Assembly: GCA_000827205.1 (NCBI GenBank)
Contig: KN832554.1
Coordinates: forward strand, 4,031,409-4,095,408
Direction: 5' to 3'
DNA length: 64,000 nucleotides
DNA from: Plicaturopsis crispa FD-325 SS-3
Taxonomy: Eukaryota > Basidiomycota > Agaricomycetes > Amylocorticiales > Amylocorticiaceae
Part shown: in pieces, positions 3,744 to 48,362 of the stretch
Layout of the letters: the number at the start of each line of letters is the position of its first letter
Numbering within the stretch: position 1 is the stretch's first letter
Made by a program: the position numbers and the translations under genes
Notes under the pieces: model-generated
Told to the model about the DNA's origin: nothing
What the model saw: only the letters and a program-made list of their open reading frames with translations
Databases searched by the model: none

Positions 3744-6700
3744 ATGCCACCTCGTCGCCCATACAAAGGGCGCACCATAGCATGTGATCGCCCAAACTGC
3801 AACAAGACGTTCAAGAACCGTTCCGGTTATATGCAGCATTTAGGTGCTAAGCATGGGGTTCCCGCATTTGTTCCACCGCCCTCGCCCTCGCCGCCTCCAG
3901 GGCCGGCACATGATTATGGAGATATGGACTTTGGCGATTACGATCGAGCGCAAGGCCCTCATCGACGTATAGAACGGCATCCAGATCTCAACGGTACATT
4001 GTCCAATTTTCGATCTACTATTGATGTTGATTCAGTTTTGCAACCTAGGGATGCCATGTGATATCAACGGCGAGTATCTGCAGCCTGGAACTCCCCCACC
4101 GCCGCGTATACCTCCGGGCGATGTCGGACATGACACTCCGGAGCAATGGGTGCCGTTCAATAATCGCGCAGAGTTTCAAATGGCCGATTTTCTATATCGT
4201 CAAAATCAAATGCCTAGATCACAAATCAATACACTCTCGGAAATCCTCGCTCAAATGTATCCAGACTCCCCTCCGCCATTTGCTGATCACAACGAACTAT
4301 ACGAAATCATCGACTCAATCGAGCAGGGTGACACCATCTGGAGCTCATTCTCCATATCGTATACTGGACCCCGCCCCCTTCAAGATGTTCCTCCCTGGAT
4401 GGTCGCGGAGTACGATGTATGGTATAGGAATCCCCGAACCGTCATTCGGAACCAGCTAGCAAATCCGAATGCTGGTGCAGAAGGATTCGACACTGCGCCG
4501 TTCCGAGAATTCGACTCGAATAACAAGCGACGCTACCAGAATTTTATGTCAGGGAATTGGGCCTACCGGCAGGCGGTACGTTCTTTAGTTCAACTACGTC
4601 GAGTCCATTTTACTCAATTCTTCTTACTACAGGATGCTATTGCCGAGGACGATGAGACTCACGGTGGCATGTTCGTTCCCGTAATTCTAGGAAGCGACAA
4701 AACGACCGTGTCCGTTGCTACGGGGCAGAACGAATACTATCCGCTGTACGCGTCAACTGGTGTTGTTCACAACAATGTCCGCCGTGCGCATCGTGGCGCC
4801 GTGTCTCTCGTCGCTTTTCTTGCCATCCCGAAGAGTACGTCTTATTTCCTTATATGCACATGTTCCAATCTCATCATTTCACGAACAGCGTCCCGTGAGT
4901 ATGCCAATGACCAGGCGTTCCGGGATTTCACGCGTCAACTATTCCATACGTCGCTGGAAATCATTCTCGAACCTTTGCGCGGTGCGATGACCACGCCAGA
5001 GGTCACCATGTGCCCAGACGGCCATTACCGCCGAGTCATTTACGGATTAGGTCCTTACATTGCGGACTACCCAGAACAGGTACTCCTTTCGTCGATTGTC
5101 ACTGGGTGGTGTCCAAAGTGAGCTTCGTATTTTATCATGCTCGTGGCTATCGTACTGAAGGATACCAGGTGTACGGCACCTCCTGAAAACCTCGACGGCC
5201 CGTCTGGGAGGCGCACCCACGAGCATACTGCCGCCCTTCTCGATGCTTTCAATCTCAAAGTGTTATGGAGGGACTACGGAATCGCAGGAAACATTACTGT
5301 ACGGTACCGTTCAGACTGACTACCGTTGTTACGGACCATCTAACCGCCTTGTTAATGTAGCCCTTCACCGCTTCGTTTCCTCGAGCGGATATTCACGAGC
5401 TACTTTCACCGGATCTACTGCATCAGCTCATCAAGGGGACGTTCAAGGACCATCTCGTGACTTGGGTGGAAGAATACTTGACCATGGAGCATGGTGCGGC
5501 TGGTGCAGCTGTCGTTATGGCAGATATTGACCGTCGGTATGTTTCAATTTTGTGCTATTTATGTTTCTGCTGCTCATCCTGCTTTCTTCAGAATTGCTGC
5601 AGCCCCATCGTTTCCAGGACTACGCAGATTCAAGGAGGGCCGTGGATTCAAACAGTGGACCGGCGACGACTCCAAAGCTCTGATGAAGGTTTTCCTCCCC
5701 GCCATTGCCGGCCATGTTCCATCTGAGATGGTCCGCGCTATCAGCGCATTTCTCGATTTTTGTTACCTTGTCCGCCGTGACGTTATCGACGAAACCACGC
5801 TCGATGCCATTGACGACGCGCTAAGGCGTTTCCACCGTGACCGAGCGATTTTCCTCGTCACTGGTGTACGAAATGATTTCTCTCTCCCCCGTCAACACTC
5901 GCTTGTCCATTACCGGACGCACATCGAACTCTTTGGGGCTCCGAATGGCCTCTGCTCGTCTATCACGGAATCGAAACACATTAAGGCAGTCAAGGAGCCG
6001 TGGCGGCGTTCCAGCCATTTCGAGGCCCTAGGCCAGATGTTACTCACCAATCAACGGCTCGACAAGCTGGATGCCTTCCGTGCCGACCTCGCTGCAAAAG
6101 GACTTCTCTCACATAAACCTGTACCCCCTCCGCCCGCACCCGCACCGCCGCCAGACGATGAGCCGGATGAGCCGGTCCTAGACGGTCCAAAGGTTCTTGC
6201 CCATGTCACCCTCGCTAAATGCCCTTTTCCCCGTAAAAGTTACCCGCGCGATGCAGTCGAGCTCGGTACACGCATCAAGGAGCCTATGTTACTTGACCAC
6301 ATCCGCCGATTTCTGCAGGACCAGCTCTACCCCGACGCCTTACCCGATATTCCACTTGACGCCTGCCCCCCTTTTTTTGGCAAGGTCACATCATATCCTT
6401 CGGCCGCAGCAGTCTACTATGCACCAAGCGATCTCTCGGGGACGAACGGCATGCGCCGTGAACTCATTCGCGCTACGCACGCATGGCGCAAAACCGGCCC
6501 TCGGTATGACTGCGTCTTTGCTGAGAAAGATGCCGAGATCGACGGAGTGCAGGGAATGCACACGGTGCGCGTCCGGCTCCTGTTCTCCATCAAGTATGGA
6601 GACACGGTGTATCCGTGTGCTCTCATTGAATGGTTCAACATTGTCAATGCCCATCCCTGCGAGGACACTGGGATGTGGATAGTGGAGCCAGACCTAAATG

Positions 6701-10388: not shown

Positions 10389-12531
10389 ATGACAAGCCTC
10401 ATCTCCCGTTGTGAGTATTGCCTCACGCTAACAGCTCGTCATGTTGCTCACTTTTAACAACTTTGAGCAGCTCACGGGCCTCCCTTGGTCGGCATATTCA
10501 TGAGTTTGATTCTTTACGGGGCGATGATAACGCAGGTGTGTACGACAACACCGCTATCTGGCGTTTACAGCAATGCTGATAGTCGTCGAAAATAGTGCGT
10601 GTTCTACTGGCAAAATTATCGCCGCGACCCGGCTTGGATACGGATCTATGTAAGTACGCATATCTTGGGACCATACGAATACTCGAGTCGATCGTGATTA
10701 TGTCTCCCAGGTTTGTTTCTTGCTATTCGTCGATACTCTCAGGTCCGTACCAGTACTGCGCTTATCTCACATGATAGATCTTGACTCTATACATTTGATG
10801 TAGCACGGTGCTTGCGGTGACCTGGATTTACGGTCTTCTAATCAACGACTTCGGTAAGACCTACCTACGTACTTCATTGTTTTCCCATTAATATTCTAAT
10901 TTTCGTTGCAAGGCGACCTCTCAAAGTTTACCAAATCATCTTGGCGTGAGTCGTGCGCGAACCTTGTCTGCGCAGCTGATTGATCGAGTCTCTACATTTG
11001 ACTCCAGTACTAGCATCTGGTGAGTACACGCACCCTCCCAACCGCTGCCTTGCCTTGCCCCGCTCAAAGTCCCCCATCATCGTCACACAGATCCCGCCCT
11101 TGCCGTAAGTCCCATCGCCCACCGTCCACACCCACTCCACCACGCAAACGCACCTAAGTATATCTCCCCCAGGGCCTCACCGGGACATTCTGCCAGCTCT
11201 TCTACGCCTACCGTGCCAAATACCTCACGAACAGGGTATGGGTCGGGATCGCTATCGCAGTTCTTTCCATCATCTGTGGATGTACGTCCATTCCCTTCCC
11301 TCTACGCCTCTCCGCCTCTCCGCCTCTTCGCCTCAACCGACTTACCTACGTACCTAAGTATGTGCAATCGGCGTGGGCATCGCCGTAGGTGAGCCCCATC
11401 CGCTCTACGTATGTCACAGCCCCCCGCAGCTCACGGATTTGATTGCAAGGCATTGTCGCCGAGATGTCCCGATTCCGCGATTTCGACGCCATAGGGTCCG
11501 TGTGGCTCGTGCTCACGAGCGTCGTGGATATCGTCATAACGGGTATCGTGTCGTACAACCTCGTGTGTCCTCCCCCTCTCCTCCCTTCCCCCCTTCCTCT
11601 CTTCCCCTCTCTTCGCCCTCTCCCCCTTCCTCGTTGTCCTTTATGCTTGTACTAATAGTAGGCTATACGGGCAGCGGAGAAGTCGGTCAGACTTCAAGCG
11701 CACGAAAGACGTGCTGAGTAGGATCGTGCTCGGTGGGTATACGTATCCTTCCTTCCCCGTCCCCGTCCTCCATTGTTCATTCGTCTCCACTTAAGTGACG
11801 GTATCGACCTGCGCGATGACCTCCGCATGCGCACTCACCGAGCTCGCGTTCTTCCTCTGGATGGTCCGTCCGTTCTCACCACCCACATAATAGGGACTTG
11901 CCTCGCGCTGACGAGGTTTTACTTACTTACTTATCTTGATCTTCCGGATTGAACAGCCTGGCACGGGGTTCCACATCGCGTTCAGCTTCGTCATCGTACG
12001 TCCCCCCCATCCCACCCTTGGATTGATTTTTGGCGCATTGATGTTTTGACTGGCGCGGATCGATGTTATGACTGTCCCCCCAACGTGATATTGCTTGATA
12101 TGGCAGCCAAAACTCTACTGCAACTCCGTACTCTCGAGTCTGAACGCGCGGGAGATCAACGGGGCGCTGAACCCGGGCGAGCTGCCGAGCATCGACGATA
12201 ATTATGTCGGTGGCCAGGGGGTACGTCCTCGGCATTCCTCACTCACTCACTTCTCGCTTGTATGCTGAAGACCACACCCACTAGGAGAGCATGCAATTCA
12301 CACCGCCGCCGTATCATACTAATACTGGCGATGTACGTACCAGCCGCGTTTTGACTTCGCGCGTGTACTCATTGCGTACACGTATAGATTGTGATCCACG
12401 TCTCCGAGGAGACGCATACGTCGTCGAGTGAGACGCACACGCACACGTCGAGTGAGACGCACGCTCACACGTCGAGAGAAGTTAGCAGGAAGGACGCGGA
12501 CGCCGAGTGGGAGGACGGTAGACGGTGTTGA
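10389..12531 (+). CDS. DUF6534 multi-pass membrane protein, copy 1
   Basis: The function of this basidiomycete-expanded family is unknown; it resides in a membrane. Seventeen exons join without a frame error to 334 residues. The exons run 10389-10410, 10471-10535, 10596-10649, 10711-10742, 10804-10853, 10913-10945, 11008-11019, 11091-11104, 11173-11281, 11359-11388, 11450-11562, 11675-11732, 11796-11863, 11957-11995, 12107-12220, 12285-12332 and 12388-12531. Family features are visible in order: GPPLVGIFMSLILYGAMITQ near the N-terminus, a DPALAGLTGTFCQLFYAYR segment, a hydrophobic LCAIGVGIAV helix, WLVLTSVVDIVITGIVSYNL, RRSRSDFKRTKDVLSRIVL, and a PKLYCNSVLSSLNAR block before a hydrophilic His/Thr/Ser-rich tail. 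Exons 7 and 8 are only 12 and 14 nt. The exon structure is matched exon for exon by copy 2 downstream, so the two arose by tandem duplication. Confidence 0.9.
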
Positions 12532-13989: not shown

Positions 13990-15887
13990 ATGGGAAGTCC
14001 CATTGCCCTCTGTAAGTCGTTCACTGGGCTTGAAGCTGTTGTTATCTCTTACACCGGGGAATTCATAGCTCATGGGCCTCCATTCGCTGGGATATTCGTG
14101 AGCCTGATTCTTTACGGGGCGATGATCACACAGGTGCCCACGAGTTCGTTAACAATATTGTGGATTACACTGTACTGATAACTATCGAGCAGTGCGCATT
14201 CTACTGGAAGAATTATCGCTTCGACCCGGCCTGGATACGAACCTATGTACGCCGATCTTACTATCATATGTGGTTCCGCAACAGGTGTATGAAGCATATG
14301 CGCAGGTTTGCTTCTTGCTGTTCGTTGATACTCTCAGGTGTGTACACAAGTGTTGCGTTTGTATCACGGGACATATGTTGACACTTTACGTTTCATGCAG
14401 CACGGTGTTGGCGTTGACTTGGATATATGGTCTCCTAATCAATAGTTTCGGTGAGAGCTCCGTGCTTCAGCTTCCCTGTACAGGCTAACGTCGCGTGTTC
14501 AGGCGATCTCTCGAAGTTCACTGTGTCATCTTGGCGTAAGTCGTAGATGAACCTCGTTTGCGGAGTTGACTGATGATGTAGCTGACCTTTTCGCGCTCAG
14601 TACTAGCATCTGGTGGGTACAATCAACCATTCGAATCACCACTGAGCTGATTCCAGATCTCACTCGTCGCATAGATCCAGCTCTCGGTGTGAGTAGCCTC
14701 GTTGACACCTACGCTCACCGGTACCCATCTACCCTTAGGGTCTCAACGGGACGTTCTGCCAACTCTTCTATGCCCATCGCGTCAGACACCTCACTGATAG
14801 GGCATGGGTGGGAGCTGGCATTGCAGTCCTCTCTATCGCCTGTGGATGTACGCCATTTTTTTCCAACCCGAGCCACTGTTCACCTCCGTGTACTTCCAGT
14901 GTGCGCCATCGGTGTTGGCATCGCCGTAGGTAGGCCACATCCGCTTTTTATCAGAGCCCCGCGCGTCGCTCACGACAGTCTAGTCAAGGTCGCTGAGATG
15001 TCTCGATTTCACGAGTTCGACGGCATTGGGTCCGCATGGCTCATCCTCACATGTGTCGTGGACATCATCATAACGGCTATAGTGTCTTGGAATCTAGTAG
15101 GCTCTCTTGGTGGTCCACCTCATTGCTGTCTCTTACTAAAAAATATCTCGTCAGCGTCAAAGTCGGTCAGACTTCCAACGCACGAAAGACGTCCTGAGCA
15201 GGATCGTTCTTAGTGAGATGGTTTTCGTGAATACTTCGTGTCACTCCCTTTCACTAACTATATTCTAAGTGACATTATCGACCTGCGCTTTGACTACGGC
15301 CTGCGCATTGACTGAACTAATATTTTTCCTGACTATGGTCTGTTCATTCAGTGTACATGCATCGCCAGTGGCTCACTCATTTTTTTTCCTCGATAGCCTG
15401 ACACGGGCTTGTACATCACATTCAGTTTCATAATAGTACGTCCATCCCCGCGTGGTATACGGCTCCGCATGCAGCTAATGCGAGCCTGCAGCCAAAACTT
15501 TACTGTAACTCCGTTCTCTCAAGTCTGAACGCGAGGAAAATACACAGGGTCATGATGAATTCGGATAGTCTGCCATCGGTCACCGACGACTATCTAGAGT
15601 TCAACAGTACCCAAAGGGTACGATACATGTCCCATCCATTGGTCTTTCTTGAATACTCAACGCCTTTTAGGACACTGTACGATCATTCACGCCCTCTCAG
15701 TATAAAAGCTCTCCCGATGTGAGTCGGCTTTCAATGAGTGTTCTAATAGGTCGTCATTGACCGCGTGCTTATAATTTATGTGCAGCGTGTCATTCAACTA
15801 TCCGAGGAGATCCAAGAACCGAGTGCCGTTTGCAAGAAGGGCCCTGAATTGGATGGCAGATCTAGTGTGAATATAGCGCCAGGGTAG
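13990..15887 (+). CDS. DUF6534 multi-pass membrane protein, copy 2
   Basis: Tandem paralogue of the upstream gene, 324 residues, function unknown. The exons are 13990-14011, 14069-14133, 14193-14246, 14306-14337, 14401-14450, 14503-14535, 14601-14612, 14675-14688, 14739-14847, 14900-14929, 14984-15096, 15155-15212, 15270-15337, 15397-15435, 15492-15617, 15671-15718 and 15786-15887. Fifteen of seventeen exons have exactly the length of their copy 1 counterparts, including the 12-nt and 14-nt ones. Conserved pieces are GPPFAGIFVSLILYGAMITQ, FCQLFYAHR, FHEFDGIGSAWLILTCVVDI, SRSDFQRTKDVLSRIVL and PKLYCNSVLSSLNAR. The C-terminal tail differs from copy 1 and lacks its His/Thr repeats, so divergence is concentrated in the cytosolic end. 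The frame is open throughout, so both copies appear functional. Confidence 0.9.
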
Positions 15888-19548: not shown

Positions 19549-21109
<1,561 letters not shown>

Positions 21110-21712
21110 TGCTGAAGAGGTATTTGTGTATGTTCTTGTGTTCTGCAGTGACGAGACATCCGGTGAGCCCTTTATACGATGTGCAAGTGGAGACCTCCGC
21201 AGCGCTATGCACTCGTAAATCAAGCATGGAGTAGTTCGTTGCGACGACTGCGTAGCCTGCGGGCGCGGTTGAGCCCGAAGACAGGTGCGGGGGCGCTCTC
21301 CGCTGTGTGATGTGCGGGTTTCATATGTGCGGCTGCGATATCTGCCGTCACGTCTTGGCAGGCATTACAAAGACTATACGGCCAAAGAAGTTAACCAAGG
21401 CCTGTATTTGCTGCGCGCCGGACACAAGACTGAGGCCAGCGCTAACCGTCCAGAGGAGTCAGCTGCGCCTCGTGGGAGACGATTACTACCTTCTTATTAT
21501 GGTCAAGCTACCCGTACTCTGCCGCAGTCCACGATCACGATTTGCACACGGACACATTGCCCGCGTGTACACAAGTGCGGGAGGCGCACGAACTTCTGTG
21601 TATTCTGGGTGTAGTCCTTTGTCTCACTAATAAGCAATGGTTACGGATAGCACATGGGTGGGCAATAGCAGAAGCGTTGGCACCCCACGCGAACAGTTGC
21701 GGGGTGTCTAGC
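21110..21712 (-). promoter_or_regulatory. Upstream region of actin A
   Basis: Between the start codon of actin A and the stop of actin B. A block at 21474-21505 (GACGATTACTACCTTCTT on the plus strand) is shared with 23743-23775 upstream of actin B, so the duplication probably carried promoter sequence along. No other element identified. Confidence 0.45.
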
Positions 21713-23250
21713 TCACAAGAACTCTGTGAGCCAAACAAGTGAGCTTCAACTAGACTAAGAGAAAGGGAACAACATACTGCGATGACAAATGCCCGACCCA
21801 GACTCGGCGTACTCCTGCTTCGTCGCCCACATATTTTGGAATGTGCTGAGCGACGCGAGGATTGACCCGCCGATCCAAACAGAGTACCTGCGCTCGGGTG
21901 GCGCGACGATCTTCACCTTTGCAGACGACTTCACGATCGCAGTGATCTCCCTTTGCATGCGGTCGGCCATGCCCGGAAACAGGGTGTTACCCCCGGCCAG
22001 AACAATGTGGGACAATAGGCTGCGCCGGATGTCGGGATCACACTTGGTGATCGAGCTGAACCTGGTCACGAAGCAAGGATGAGTGAGGGTAACTGGCGGC
22101 TGAAACCTGGTGGGCTCACGTCATCTCATGGACTCCGACGGCCTCGAGTCCAAGGAGGGACGGCTGGAAAAGCGCTTCTGGAGTACGGAATCTGCAAAGG
22201 ATATCGGCCATATGCTAATCATTCGCAGTGGTCATCCCTTACCGCTCCTCCCCAAGGGTGATAACCTGGCCGTCGGGAAGTTCGTAGTTTCTCTCGATAG
22301 CCGAGCTCTGCGCTACAGTCTGCATTTCCTGGTCAAAGTCGAGTGCAACATAGCTAAGTTTCTCTTTCATGTCCCTCACGATCTCTTGATCAGCAATGGT
22401 GATACGCCCAGCCAGATTCTTGACCAAGTACTGTGTCAGATCGCGCCCGGCAACGTCGAGGCGCATGATGGCATGCGGGAGCGAGAAGCCCTCGTAGATT
22501 GGTACGGCGTGCGTGACGCCGTCGCCGGAGTCGAAGACGGTTCCCGTGCTGCGTCCGGACGTGTACATCGCGAGCGCGGCCTGTATAACAATGTAGAGCG
22601 CCGGCGCATTGAACGTCTCGAACATGATCTGCGTCATCTTCTCCTTGTTGGCCTTCGGGGTGAGGGGTGCTTCGGTGAGAAGAATGGGGTGCTCCTCTTG
22701 CGCGAATTGTAGCTCACTGAACGTGTGGTGCCATATTCTCTCCATGTCGTCCCAGTTAGTGACAATACCGCGCTCTATGGGGTACTTTAGGGCGAAGATG
22801 TCGCGCTTAAACTCAGCCTTGTCACTGCGACCGACCGTGTTGGTAGGTAGTCAATGCTTCGAGGGAGGCGGTGAGACGTACCCCACATGTGAGTCCTTTT
22901 GACCCATACACGGATGACCAATATTCGACCTGGACTTTGCTATCGGATTTGAGGCGGTGTTGAAAACGTATGAAACTTACGGAAAAAATGCACGGGGTCC
23001 ATCGTCACCTACGTCAGAGAATCGTGAACATTCTTACAACGCAAATACGTTTGAGAATCTACCAGCAACTGCAGACAGAGCATCAGTACAGCATCAAGTT
23101 TCTAAAGAGTACAGGACGCATCACTTACATCCAACTTTGCACGTGCCAGAACCATTGTCAACAACCTGGGCAAATGGCAAAACTCCGAGTCAGTCTAAAC
23201 TTTGTAGCGAGAAGCTTCGAACATACGAGAGCTGCTAATTCGTCGCCCAT
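21713..23250 (-). CDS. Actin-like paralogue B lacking most of the DNase-loop
   Basis: Nine exons (23250-23227, 23165-23129, 23068-23063, 23008-22981, 22929-22882, 22824-22243, 22191-22120, 22061-21778, 21723-21713) give 363 residues, with the same intron positions and the same 6-nt exon 3 as paralogue A. The frame is open throughout. Exon 5 is 21 nt shorter than in A: canonical residues 39-46 are replaced by one Cys (GHPCMGQKD), removing most of the DNase-loop of subdomain 2. A further net loss of five residues falls in exon 6 (TFSEL and [11 protein letters not shown]). His73, normally methylated, is Arg (YPIERGIV). The nucleotide-binding loops DNGSG and FDSGDGVTH and Gln137 remain. Since the DNase-loop makes longitudinal filament contacts, normal polymerisation is doubtful. 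It may be an actin-related protein in the making, a monomer-type regulator, or a gene starting to decay. Confidence 0.9.
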
Positions 23251-23410
23251 TGCTGCAGAGGTGTCTGAGACGTTGTTGTGCTTTGAAGTAAAGAGACGTA
23301 CGATCAACCCTTTACACTGCAAGACTGAAGTCACCCTAGTCACCCGCAGTGGCTGCGTTGATCACTGCCTTCCCGATACAACCAGTATGCCCTGACCACG
23401 CACAGGTCAC

Positions 23411-23668
23411 TCACAGTCCGGGAAAAGCGCCCTGTAGAAGGCCATAGCAGTATAGAACGGTGTCGCCCTGCAGCCCAGCTAGCTTACTCTGGTACTTTGA
23501 GGGCTTGTCCGCTGCGCCTTCAACGGTGTACTTGGGAAGCGCGTCGGTGGAAAGTTTGCCAACGTGCGTGAACGAGACGGTTTCTGGTGTCGGCTGTGAT
23601 AGAGAGAATGGAGGAAAATCGACTTCGCTAATGTGGATGCGCCTTGGAGCAAGAGTATCAACGTTCAA
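23411..23668 (-). other. Open frame of unknown origin, possible gene fragment
   Basis: An 85-codon minus-strand frame with ordinary codon use ends in a good splice donor (ACT|GTGAGT at about 23415). The start of actin B lies only 160 bp further on, and I find no continuing exon. The encoded piece (for example KPSKYQSKLAGLQGDTVLYC) matches nothing I know. It may be the 5' part of a truncated gene left by the actin duplication, or chance. Confidence 0.3.
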
Positions 23669-23711
23669 CGTTCAACGGTTCAACGTTCAACCGTTCAACG
23701 TTCAACGTTCA
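23659..23711. repeat. TTCAACG tandem repeat
   Basis: About seven degenerate copies of TTCAACG in 53 bp, some inverted enough to pair (AACGTT, CCGTTCAACG). It lies 160 bp before the zinc-finger gene and at the upstream edge of the open frame on the other strand. Confidence 0.8.
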
Positions 23712-25334: not shown

Positions 25335-26632
25335 CTATAGCTGAAGTCCAGCCTCCGCAGCCTTAAGCGCCTCGTACAAGCCATGTTGGTCCCCGAGCCC
25401 GTACGTGAGGGTCCTCCGTTCATATCGTGACGGGCCATCATCCGCGTCCAGCTCGAGCTGGGAATTTATCAGAGAAATCCGCACAAGCACAGCGGCGGGA
25501 ACGACGCACATGAGAGATGATGTCGTCCAGCAGGTGCGCTTGGCCCACCAGCATTCCCGTGCCTGCTAACGCGCTCTGGTTCGCGTTCACGATGTGCACA
25601 TGGAAGTGGTCTAGCACCACATTATGCATGCATACAACCGCGTTTGCACAACAGAGGCCACTCACAGTACGACGGTTGGTAGTGCACGTACAGCCGGGTG
25701 GAGCCCGGGGGTAGGCCCCAGCGCTCCTGCACCACACGCTCTGCCTCGCGCCGGATGCCTGCAGCATGCCCAGGTGCGTCTTGTTGAGATCGCGCAGGCT
25801 GCGGATGCTACGCGAGTACGCGATCGTGACGAGGTAGAGCGTGAAGAGTGTTGTGAGGTCCCATTTCGCATCTGGCAGGATGACGAAGCCGAAATCGGGG
25901 CTCGCGTCGCGGTATATGACTTTGTCTGCCTCGGCTTTTCCGGACAGGATGTCCTCGACCCTGGATGGCGTTGACGGGAAGGATGTGGTGACAGTGATTC
26001 AATTTGGAGGACAGGCGGGGACTTACCATTGCGTACGAGAAGGGGGAAATGAGTCGATGTAGGGTTTGATGATCTATTCATTCAGCTCAGGCGTCTCGTG
26101 CACCATGAGTAGGGTCTGTTTCGTGTACTGTGGAAGCAATCATAATCAATACGCGCCCTCTGTCTGATGCAGCAGAGAGCACGAGCCTTGCGTATGTGCG
26201 CTTCCGTCGCGGGGTGGATGATGTCGACCCTAAAGTCAGGCTCCCCAATCGTCCAGTCGCCCATTCTGTTTATGCATCCAGAAAACCACGCATACTATGA
26301 AACAACACAAACCGTTCCAGGAAGATCTGGAAAAAGGGGACTAGACTTTACGACGTCGTTCTGCTCTTCCAAATACAATGTGCCCAGATCGCGCACAGTG
26401 CCGAGCGCGTCATACGACTGCAACGGCGTTTTCGCGACCCGAATAATTGTTGGTGCTAGCTCGGACCCCTCGTCGGATACAGGGAACGATCCGAGCATTG
26501 CGATGGCATTGGGATCTTAGACATTGTTGGGTGTGTTAGTCTTAGGGCCATCGGCGATTCCACCATACCATCGTTGAGAAACCGTTTAAACTTGAATAAT
26601 TTCAAGGTCTCTTCGTCGAATTCCAGCGGCAT
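25335..26632 (-). pseudogene. Dead copy of the scavenger decapping enzyme (DcpS/DCS1)
   Basis: Aligns exon for exon with the intact gene at 46419-47702, including intron positions and the 59-nt GC-AG intron (26128-26186). At least three lesions are seen: an in-frame TAG at 26074-26076 where the intact copy has CAG; loss of one base near 25760, in the stretch after HLGMLQ, which shifts the frame; and loss of the normal donor of the last intron near 25510. The triple-His segment HFHVH is still readable after the shift. The promoter side is also shared with the intact gene: CCATGCCAAACAACGTTTTG occurs upstream of both. Overall identity to the intact copy is high, so the duplication or the death of this copy is fairly young. 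A short N-terminal protein could still be made. Confidence 0.9.
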
Positions 26633-46418: not shown

Positions 46419-47702
46419 ATGGCTTTCAAATTTAACGAAAAATCTCTCAAATTATTCGAGTTTGAACGGTTTCTCAACGACGGTACATACGGCGACTGGT
46501 TGAACCCACCAAGTTGCAACCTAACCATGTTCAAGATCCTAATGCCATCGCGATCCTCGGATCATATCCCGTGTCTGACAAGTCGTCCGAGAGAGCACCA
46601 GCGATCATTCGGGTCGCAAAGACGCCGTTGCAGCCCCGCGACGCGGCCGACATTATATACAACCTGGGCGGCTTCCAATTTCAAGAACAGAACGACATCG
46701 TAAAGTCCAGTCCTCCCTTTCTAGGGCTTTCTGTGACAAGTGTTGGTATCTCGCAGTATTTGTGGCTCTTTGGATGGATAAACGCGATGAACTGGACGCT
46801 GGGTGAGCCTGACTTTAGGATCGACATCATCTATCCTGCGACGGAGGCGCACATTCGCAAGGCGCGTGGTTTCCTCTGCCTCAGGCAGCGTACGCGTACT
46901 GATTCTTGTGACATTTGCAGTATACGAAACAGACCCTGCTCATGGTACGCGAGACGCCTCGGCTGTATGAACAGATCGTCAAGCCCTACATCGACTCGTT
47001 CCCCCCTTCTCGCACGCAATGGTGAGTCCTGCTCACACTTCTGCTTGCAACCCATGCATGAAACTCTCATGTTCAGGGTCGAGGACATCCTGTCTGGAAA
47101 ATCCGAGGCAGACAAAGTCATCTACCGCGACGCGTCCCCCGATTACGGCTTCGTCATCCTGCCAGACGCGAAATGGGACCTCACAACACTCTCCACGCTC
47201 TACCTCGTCGCGATCGCGCACTCGCGCAGCATCCGCAGCCTGCGCGATCTCAACAAGACGCACCTAGGCATGCTGCAGAGCATCCGGCGCGAGGCAGAGC
47301 GTGTGGTGCAGGAGCGCTGGGTCCTACCCCCGGGCTCCACCCGGCTGTACGTGCACTACCAACCGTCGTACTGTGCGTGGTCCTTGCTTTTTGAACCCGG
47401 TTGTATGGGTATATGATGTGATGCTACCGACAGACCATTTCCATGTGCACATCGTGAATGCGAACCAGAGCGCGTTGGCAGGCACTGGAATGTCCGTCGG
47501 CCAGGCGCACCTGCTGGACGACATCATCTCCCTCGTATGTCGTTCCCGTTGCAATACCTACATGGATTATTCTGATAGATCCTAGCTCGAGCTCGACGCG
47601 GATGATGGCCCGTCGATATTTCAACGCATGACTCTCACATATGGACTTGGGGATCAGCATGGCTTGTACGACGCGCTGAAGGCCGCACAGAATGAACTAT
47701 AG
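46419..47702 (+). CDS. dcs1: Scavenger mRNA decapping enzyme (m7GpppX diphosphatase)
   Basis: Seven exons (46419-46482, 46536-46699, 46757-46861, 46921-47021, 47077-47372, 47434-47534, 47586-47702) give 315 residues. The enzyme hydrolyses the m7GpppN cap fragments left by 3'-5' mRNA decay. Motifs: IIRVAKTPL (N-terminal domain), QNDIYLWLFGW, IDIIYPATEAHIRKYTKQTL, ADKVIYRDASPDYGFVILPD, HSRSIRSLRDL, and the HIT-family triad HFHVH at residues 245-249. The third intron (46862-46920) is GC-AG: AAG|GCGCGT; with it the join reads HIRKYTKQ as expected for the family, while the only nearby GT donor breaks the frame. The second intron is 57 nt and reads through. An inactivated copy of the whole gene lies at 25335-26632 in opposite orientation, so this is the working copy. 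Confidence 0.92.
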
Positions 47703-48362
47703 CTGTAGTGCGAACATGTGCGGCGTGCGTTCCACTCGCGGCTGTCACTTCCCCTTGTATGCAGACATGAACACATTGGTAGTCGTATGTCCAGGGTTTT
47801 TGGTAAGTAACTGGGCAATCGAGTAACGTTCGTCTCCTGATGCACGATTCAGGTCGATTCCCGCACTGATTCAACGTGTTCATTGAACTTACTGTTGAAG
47901 TGTATGGACAGTGGACTCGAGTACTCAAGCTCGGACTCAGTACTCGGACTCAATACACGGACACAGTGTGGACTCAGTACTAAGTTCGCCACTTATTCAT
48001 GACTATGTATATGCTACCGATGTTTCCTCATTCCCATCGGCGCACATGCACGCTCTCAGTCAGCACTCGGTTAGCACTCACTGGGCAGGCAGATGTGCCG
48101 CCAGACTTGCGTGGACTGACGGCTCCGGTACGGCTCGAGTTTGCCATGGAATTTATACCCTGTAGCGGTCAAGAGCTCGCACATTCTCTTACCCTCCTTT
48201 CCCCTTTCGAATTGCAACTCTCGGACTCGGGGCATTGTCTATCCAGACGCACAAACGTTTACATTTCTGCACATTGTTTTGAAGATCATTGTGACAAGTG
48301 AGTACCTGCAGTCCGTATTCAAATCCCTCGATGCAGTTTTCTCACATCGTCTTTGAGCTCAG
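47703..48362. other. Intergenic region with GGACTCAGTACT repeats
   Basis: 660 bp without a gene. Between 47911 and 47983 the motifs GGACTC(A/G)(A/G)TAC and CGGACTCAGTACT recur about five times; further single copies of CAGCACTCGG-like sequence occur near 48060. No function inferred. Confidence 0.5.

Follow-up and report, generated by a model that had tools for sequence, protein, structure and literature searches.

Can a copy of actin, which is among the most conserved proteins, remain a coding gene after losing part of the surface that joins subunits into filaments? The question is raised by two adjoining actin genes, A and B, on the minus strand of a 64-kb window (the whole stretch of DNA analyzed). 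The initial annotation of gene B described a gap in the DNase-loop (D-loop) and a replaced His73 in an otherwise open frame, and proposed either a non-polymerizing or specialized actin-like protein or an early stage of decay. As described below, the observation was confirmed, and B turned out to be altered more extensively than first noted.

Gene structure and family membership

The exons of B were modeled by homology from the conserved protein. The features of the locus are:

21713..23250, minus strand: actin paralog B, nine-exon gene model, 363 aa, Pfam PF00022
23250-23227, 23165-23129, 23068-23063, 23008-22981, 22929-22882, 22824-22243, 22191-22120, 22061-21778, 21723-21713, minus strand: the nine exons of B
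23063..23068, minus strand: exon 3 of B, 6 nt (TTGCTG), predicted from the conserved protein, with a counterpart in A
22882..22929, minus strand: exon 5 of B, 48 nt (69 nt in A), seven D-loop codons gone and a Cys codon (TGT) remaining
22243..22824, minus strand: exon 6 of B, with H73R, a one-codon deletion at residue 91, N111T and a four-codon deletion at 197–200
21778..22061, minus strand: exon 8 of B, with L287P, D292S, T303N, M305L, P322K and K336R among other changes
23251..23317, minus strand: stretch upstream of B, alignable with the upstream of A (blastn extent)
19549..21109, minus strand: actin A, intact tandem neighbor of B, nine-exon gene model, 375 aa, Pfam PF00022

The joined exons of B (24, 37, 6, 28, 48, 582, 72, 284 and 11 nt) give 1092 nt encoding 363 residues, with start and stop codons retained and no internal stops. 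All eight introns, 51–61 nt each, have GT...AG borders. The gene model confirmed the annotated join of nine exons, and the start and stop coordinates agree. No stop, frameshift or splice-site loss was found across the nine exons and eight introns.

The Pfam Actin family (PF00022) matches B with E = 3.3e-129 in two stretches, and the best 60 of 169 PDB sequences matched are all named actins, so that family membership is not a matter of chance. By these matches, B is a member of the conventional actin family. Homology to conventional actins extends over the whole length, with 255/363 identities to yeast actin (1yag) and 260/363 to cytoplasmic actin 1 (8rtt). A fold prediction from two sequences, covering exon 6 only, had a mean pLDDT of 37, too low to be informative. 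When viral contigs were searched for relatives of exon 6, the exon without the D-loop, six stretches fitted the pattern and none was confirmed.

Gene A shares the exon structure of B, the 6-nt exon included, and matches PF00022 with E = 2.9e-144. In blastn, the alignment of the two genes begins 67 bases upstream of the start of B, ends at its stop codon (21712–23317 on the B side) and has 74% identity. Their proteins are identical at 289 of 363 aligned residues and do not differ at residues 340–362, in exon 8. An upstream TATA-like motif reads TATAAAGG in A and TGTAAAGG at the aligned site of B. A tblastn scan of the whole 64-kb window found no third actin copy: below E = 0.35, all hits fell within A and B.

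Four reference actins (1yag, 8rtt, 1d4x and 4efh) were used for comparison. Of the 323 sites invariant among them, 84 are changed or lost in B and 28 are changed in A, including C374F and V370C. The same state is carried by B at 21 of the 28 departures of A; none of the references is from a basidiomycete, and states common to A and B may be typical of the group. Judged by these departures, A is a somewhat divergent actin itself and may be a second actin of this fungus.

The microexon TTGCTG is present in both gene models (20934–20939 in A, 23063–23068 in B) between introns of 53–60 nt, and skipping it would preserve the frame in either gene. A tandem array of TCAACGT (period 7, 7.4 copies) lies at 23658–23711, about 400 bases upstream of B. 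Elsewhere in the window, two stretches resembling the scavenger mRNA decapping enzyme DcpS were found at 25335–26602 and 46449–47708, in opposite orientation and about 20 kb apart, with 78.7% identity over 1281 aligned positions. A second related pair (10469–11552 and 14067–15086) is 67% identical, and the two open frames overlapping 14067–15086 gave no Pfam match. A frame at 3976–5118 matches the Plavaka transposase (Pfam E = 2.6e-85). The DNA is that of a eukaryote with short introns, and the transposase match agrees with an origin in a mushroom-forming basidiomycete.

Loss of filament-contact loops

The annotated 21-nt in-frame gap was found in exon 5, where P38-RHIGVMVG-M47 of A reads P-C-M in B and residues 39–46 are replaced by a single Cys. 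The D-loop of conventional actin (residues 39–50) is thus incomplete in B. As the gap is internal to the 48-nt exon, no missed exon can restore residues 39–46, and this explanation, which the annotation had named as a possible refutation, was ruled out. Two further in-frame deletions had been overlooked, as had N111T: 3 nt at residue 91, and 12 nt that remove residues 197–200 from the pointed-end loop of subdomain 4.

According to the available part of PMC10019781, the D-loop is indispensable for polymerization and makes intrastrand contacts together with the subdomain-4 region 195–208. With contact-residue ranges taken from the same part of that paper, substitution or deletion has affected 16 of the 31 pointed-end intrastrand residues of B, as against 4 of 25 changed barbed-end residues, which is about the background rate (74/350 elsewhere); these counts include seven positions where A also departs from the references. 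Eleven of the 16 affected pointed-end residues were deleted in two events. Since each deletion is one event, the residue counts overstate the enrichment, and a test of substitutions alone is the fairer one. It gave 5/20 at the pointed end against 61/343 (P = 0.38), which is not significant.

With subdomain limits that we take to be those of actin, 18 of 37 subdomain 2 residues are changed or lost in B compared with 60 of 338 elsewhere. For substitutions alone, the proportions are 11/30 and 55/333 (P = 0.012, uncorrected). Other changes include E195G and the loss of R39. The barbed face carries L287P at a key contact, D292S, P322K and L325A, the last two near barbed-end contacts. The W-loop (165–172) is unchanged at all eight positions, and the plug keeps S265, L267, G268 and L269 with F266L.

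Nucleotide site and phosphate backdoor

The nucleotide loops had been annotated as kept. This holds for the catalytic and phosphate-loop residues Asp11, Ser14, Lys18, His161, Gln137 and Asp154, the last two of which had been named individually, and for Asp157. It does not hold throughout: among 27 positions that we presume to contact the nucleotide, four are changed (M16T, T303N, M305L and K336R). Relative to conventional actin, B retains D11, Q137, D154 and H161 and lacks seven D-loop residues and residues 197–200, with Arg for His at 73 and Thr for Asn at 111.

The replacement of His73, a hallmark of conventional actin, by Arg was borne out by the alignment. It lies at the phosphate backdoor, where N111 is also changed and R177 and G74 are kept. 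The backdoor is described in the available part of PMC10643162 as R177 bonded to the side chain of N111 and to the backbone at both H73 and G74. Since it is the backbone of residue 73 that takes part, the weight placed on His73 in the annotation is less certain. The same excerpt reports that N111S filaments release phosphate rapidly. In yeast, H73A exchanges nucleotide faster and polymerizes more slowly (PMC12421705, in the part available), although that mutant has Ala at position 73, where B has Arg. N111T, perhaps together with H73R, may cause any phosphate formed to be released fast; we infer these nucleotide consequences from the altered residues.

Selection on gene B

The comparison with actin A proposed in the annotation was carried out. 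Pairwise maximum likelihood gave ω = 0.165 (dN 0.107, dS 0.646), with ω = 1 rejected (2ΔlnL = 107.5), and a counting method gave a dN/dS of 0.19. The dN/dS of B is thus below 1 over its whole history, as a pairwise figure from which the latest part of the branch is not separable. Polarization of replacements with the four reference actins assigned 61 to the B lineage and four to that of A. With dS split evenly, the branch ω comes to about 0.31 in B and 0.02 in A, and that of B runs from 0.52 to 0.22 when 30–70% of dS is assigned to it; these are rough values obtained from the DNA of the pair alone.

The three coding indels between A and B (21, 3 and 12 nt) are all multiples of three. Intron lengths are unequal in seven of the eight pairs, and in no case is the difference a multiple of three (coding versus intron, Fisher P = 0.008). 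Replacements specific to B are more conservative than random mutations, with P = 0.0008 for the protein as a whole and P = 0.0009 for residues 55–375. No departure from neutrality was detected in residues 1–54 (P = 0.30) or in subdomain 2 (P = 0.31). Exons 1–5 have an ω of 0.47 compared with 0.17 for exons 6–9, a difference that is not significant (Fisher P = 0.16). These comparisons of sequence support protein-level selection on most of B during most of its history. The constraint is clear only in residues 55–375, and the gap region may be relaxed.

Fourfold sites differ between A and B at 0/18 in codons 1–50, 0/7 in codons 351–375 and 48/119 between. Replacement change seemed to exceed silent change in codons 1–50, but positive selection there was considered and dropped in view of the non-significant exons 1–5 contrast. 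The identity of introns 1–5 is about 46–60%, and that of intron 8 is 78%. Partial gene conversion alone would not account for the diverged 5' introns of the pair.

Interpretation of gene B

Somewhat more probably than otherwise, B is a coding, diverged tandem duplicate of actin that has kept the nucleotide-binding fold and lost pointed-end contacts, and its product would be non-polymerizing or chain-terminating. Tandem duplication of an actin gene would have given rise to B, whose pointed-end contact surface was then cut back. The protein would still fold and bind ATP. It would not form ordinary filaments, lacking the D-loop and subdomain-4 contacts needed by the barbed face of the next subunit. 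B, with both pointed-end loops shortened, is not expected to be a normal filament subunit, and the loss of the second loop (197–200) strengthens the non-polymerizing reading. B could act as a monomeric actin that binds barbed-face partners. Alternatively, its own barbed face could dock on the pointed end of a filament, making B a chain terminator. Both roles are possible given barbed contacts that have changed at about the background rate and the presence of L287P, P322K and L325A.

The main rival is recent decay. B would have been functional through most of its history and have been released from selection recently. The first steps toward a pseudogene would then be the D-loop deletion, H73R and the altered TATA-like motif. 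We regard this as a tentative explanation, well short of an even chance. It is consistent with residues 1–54 and subdomain 2 being indistinguishable from neutral, with the imbalance of replacements between B and A, and with the degradation of the upstream motif from TATAAAGG to TGTAAAGG. Against it stand the lack of any stop, frameshift or broken splice site and the in-frame state of all three coding indels. Under a neutral model, moreover, the probability of no disabling substitution is 0.037 at 0.05 substitutions per site, indels uncounted, and far lower at 0.32, which is half of the pairwise dS. On this rough model, any decay of B would be limited to roughly the last 15%, at most, of the time since duplication. 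Of the two readings in the annotation, that of a non-polymerizing or specialized protein is favored by the pairwise ω, the in-frame deletions, the conservative replacements in residues 55–375 and the second lost loop, and decay retains a place through residues 1–54 and subdomain 2, where no constraint was detected.

A dedicated function is a more specific and unlikely proposal, namely that B is a pointed-end-terminating or monomer-only actin with both loops trimmed and the backdoor altered, having reached independently a role like that of Arp11. Arp10/Arp11 of dynactin is a relative of actin that sits at the filament's pointed end (PMC8047447 and PMC3583065, from the parts available). The likeness to B would be one of logic only, that of an actin-fold subunit ending a filament at its pointed end; B itself is a duplicate of actin with actins as its best hits. 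Orthology of B to Arp10/Arp11 was considered and is opposed by the PDB matches, the best 60 of 169 being actins, and by the identity to A. It was judged by the best hits and the sister relation to A only, including the 21 reference-departing states common to both genes.

Rather doubtful is the suggestion that B can still polymerize, either by itself or together with A. It would then be an actin of fast turnover whose D-loop is shortened, an extreme case among divergent actins such as those of Toxoplasma and Leishmania. The intact W-loop and the largely kept plug agree with this suggestion. So do the divergent D-loops of TgAct1, compatible with unstable filaments (PMC10902351), and of Leishmania actin, compatible with filaments (PMC9200798), as far as the available parts of these papers go. 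Nevertheless, those D-loops are described there as substituted, not removed, whereas B is missing seven D-loop and four subdomain-4 residues, E195 and R39 are lost, and L287P is present. That an assembly or sequencing error made the gap is scarcely credible. With 61 replacements of its own, in-frame deletions at three separate sites and introns that have diverged, B is a truly different gene and not a mis-assembled A.

Comparison with known divergent actins

Rapidly evolving relatives of actin are already known, for example Drosophila Arp53D, whose actin fold was judged too divergent to copolymerize in vivo, within detection limits (PMC8291977, in the part available). Like B, Arp53D is described in that excerpt as an accelerated duplicate with an open frame. 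B differs in being fungal, in having no N-terminal extension and in carrying deletions in polymerization loops.

Altered D-loops have likewise been reported, in actins of Paramecium (PMC1852557) and Toxoplasma (PMC10902351), both papers being available in part. In many isoforms of the Paramecium tetraurelia actin subfamilies, the D-loop and plug are weakly conserved. Residues are lacking or altered in these isoforms, and the available part of PMC1852557 notes no D-loop deletion like that of B. Among the matches listed in a search of titles and the beginnings of abstracts in the open-licence literature, none described a fungal actin from which the D-loop had been deleted.

The locus offers a natural test of actin without polymerization, as a readable copy missing two filament-contact loops lies next to an intact sister that serves as a control. 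If B is decaying, it would be a case of ordinary duplicate loss. If it is expressed and related species conserve it, it would illustrate how an actin-related protein first arises.
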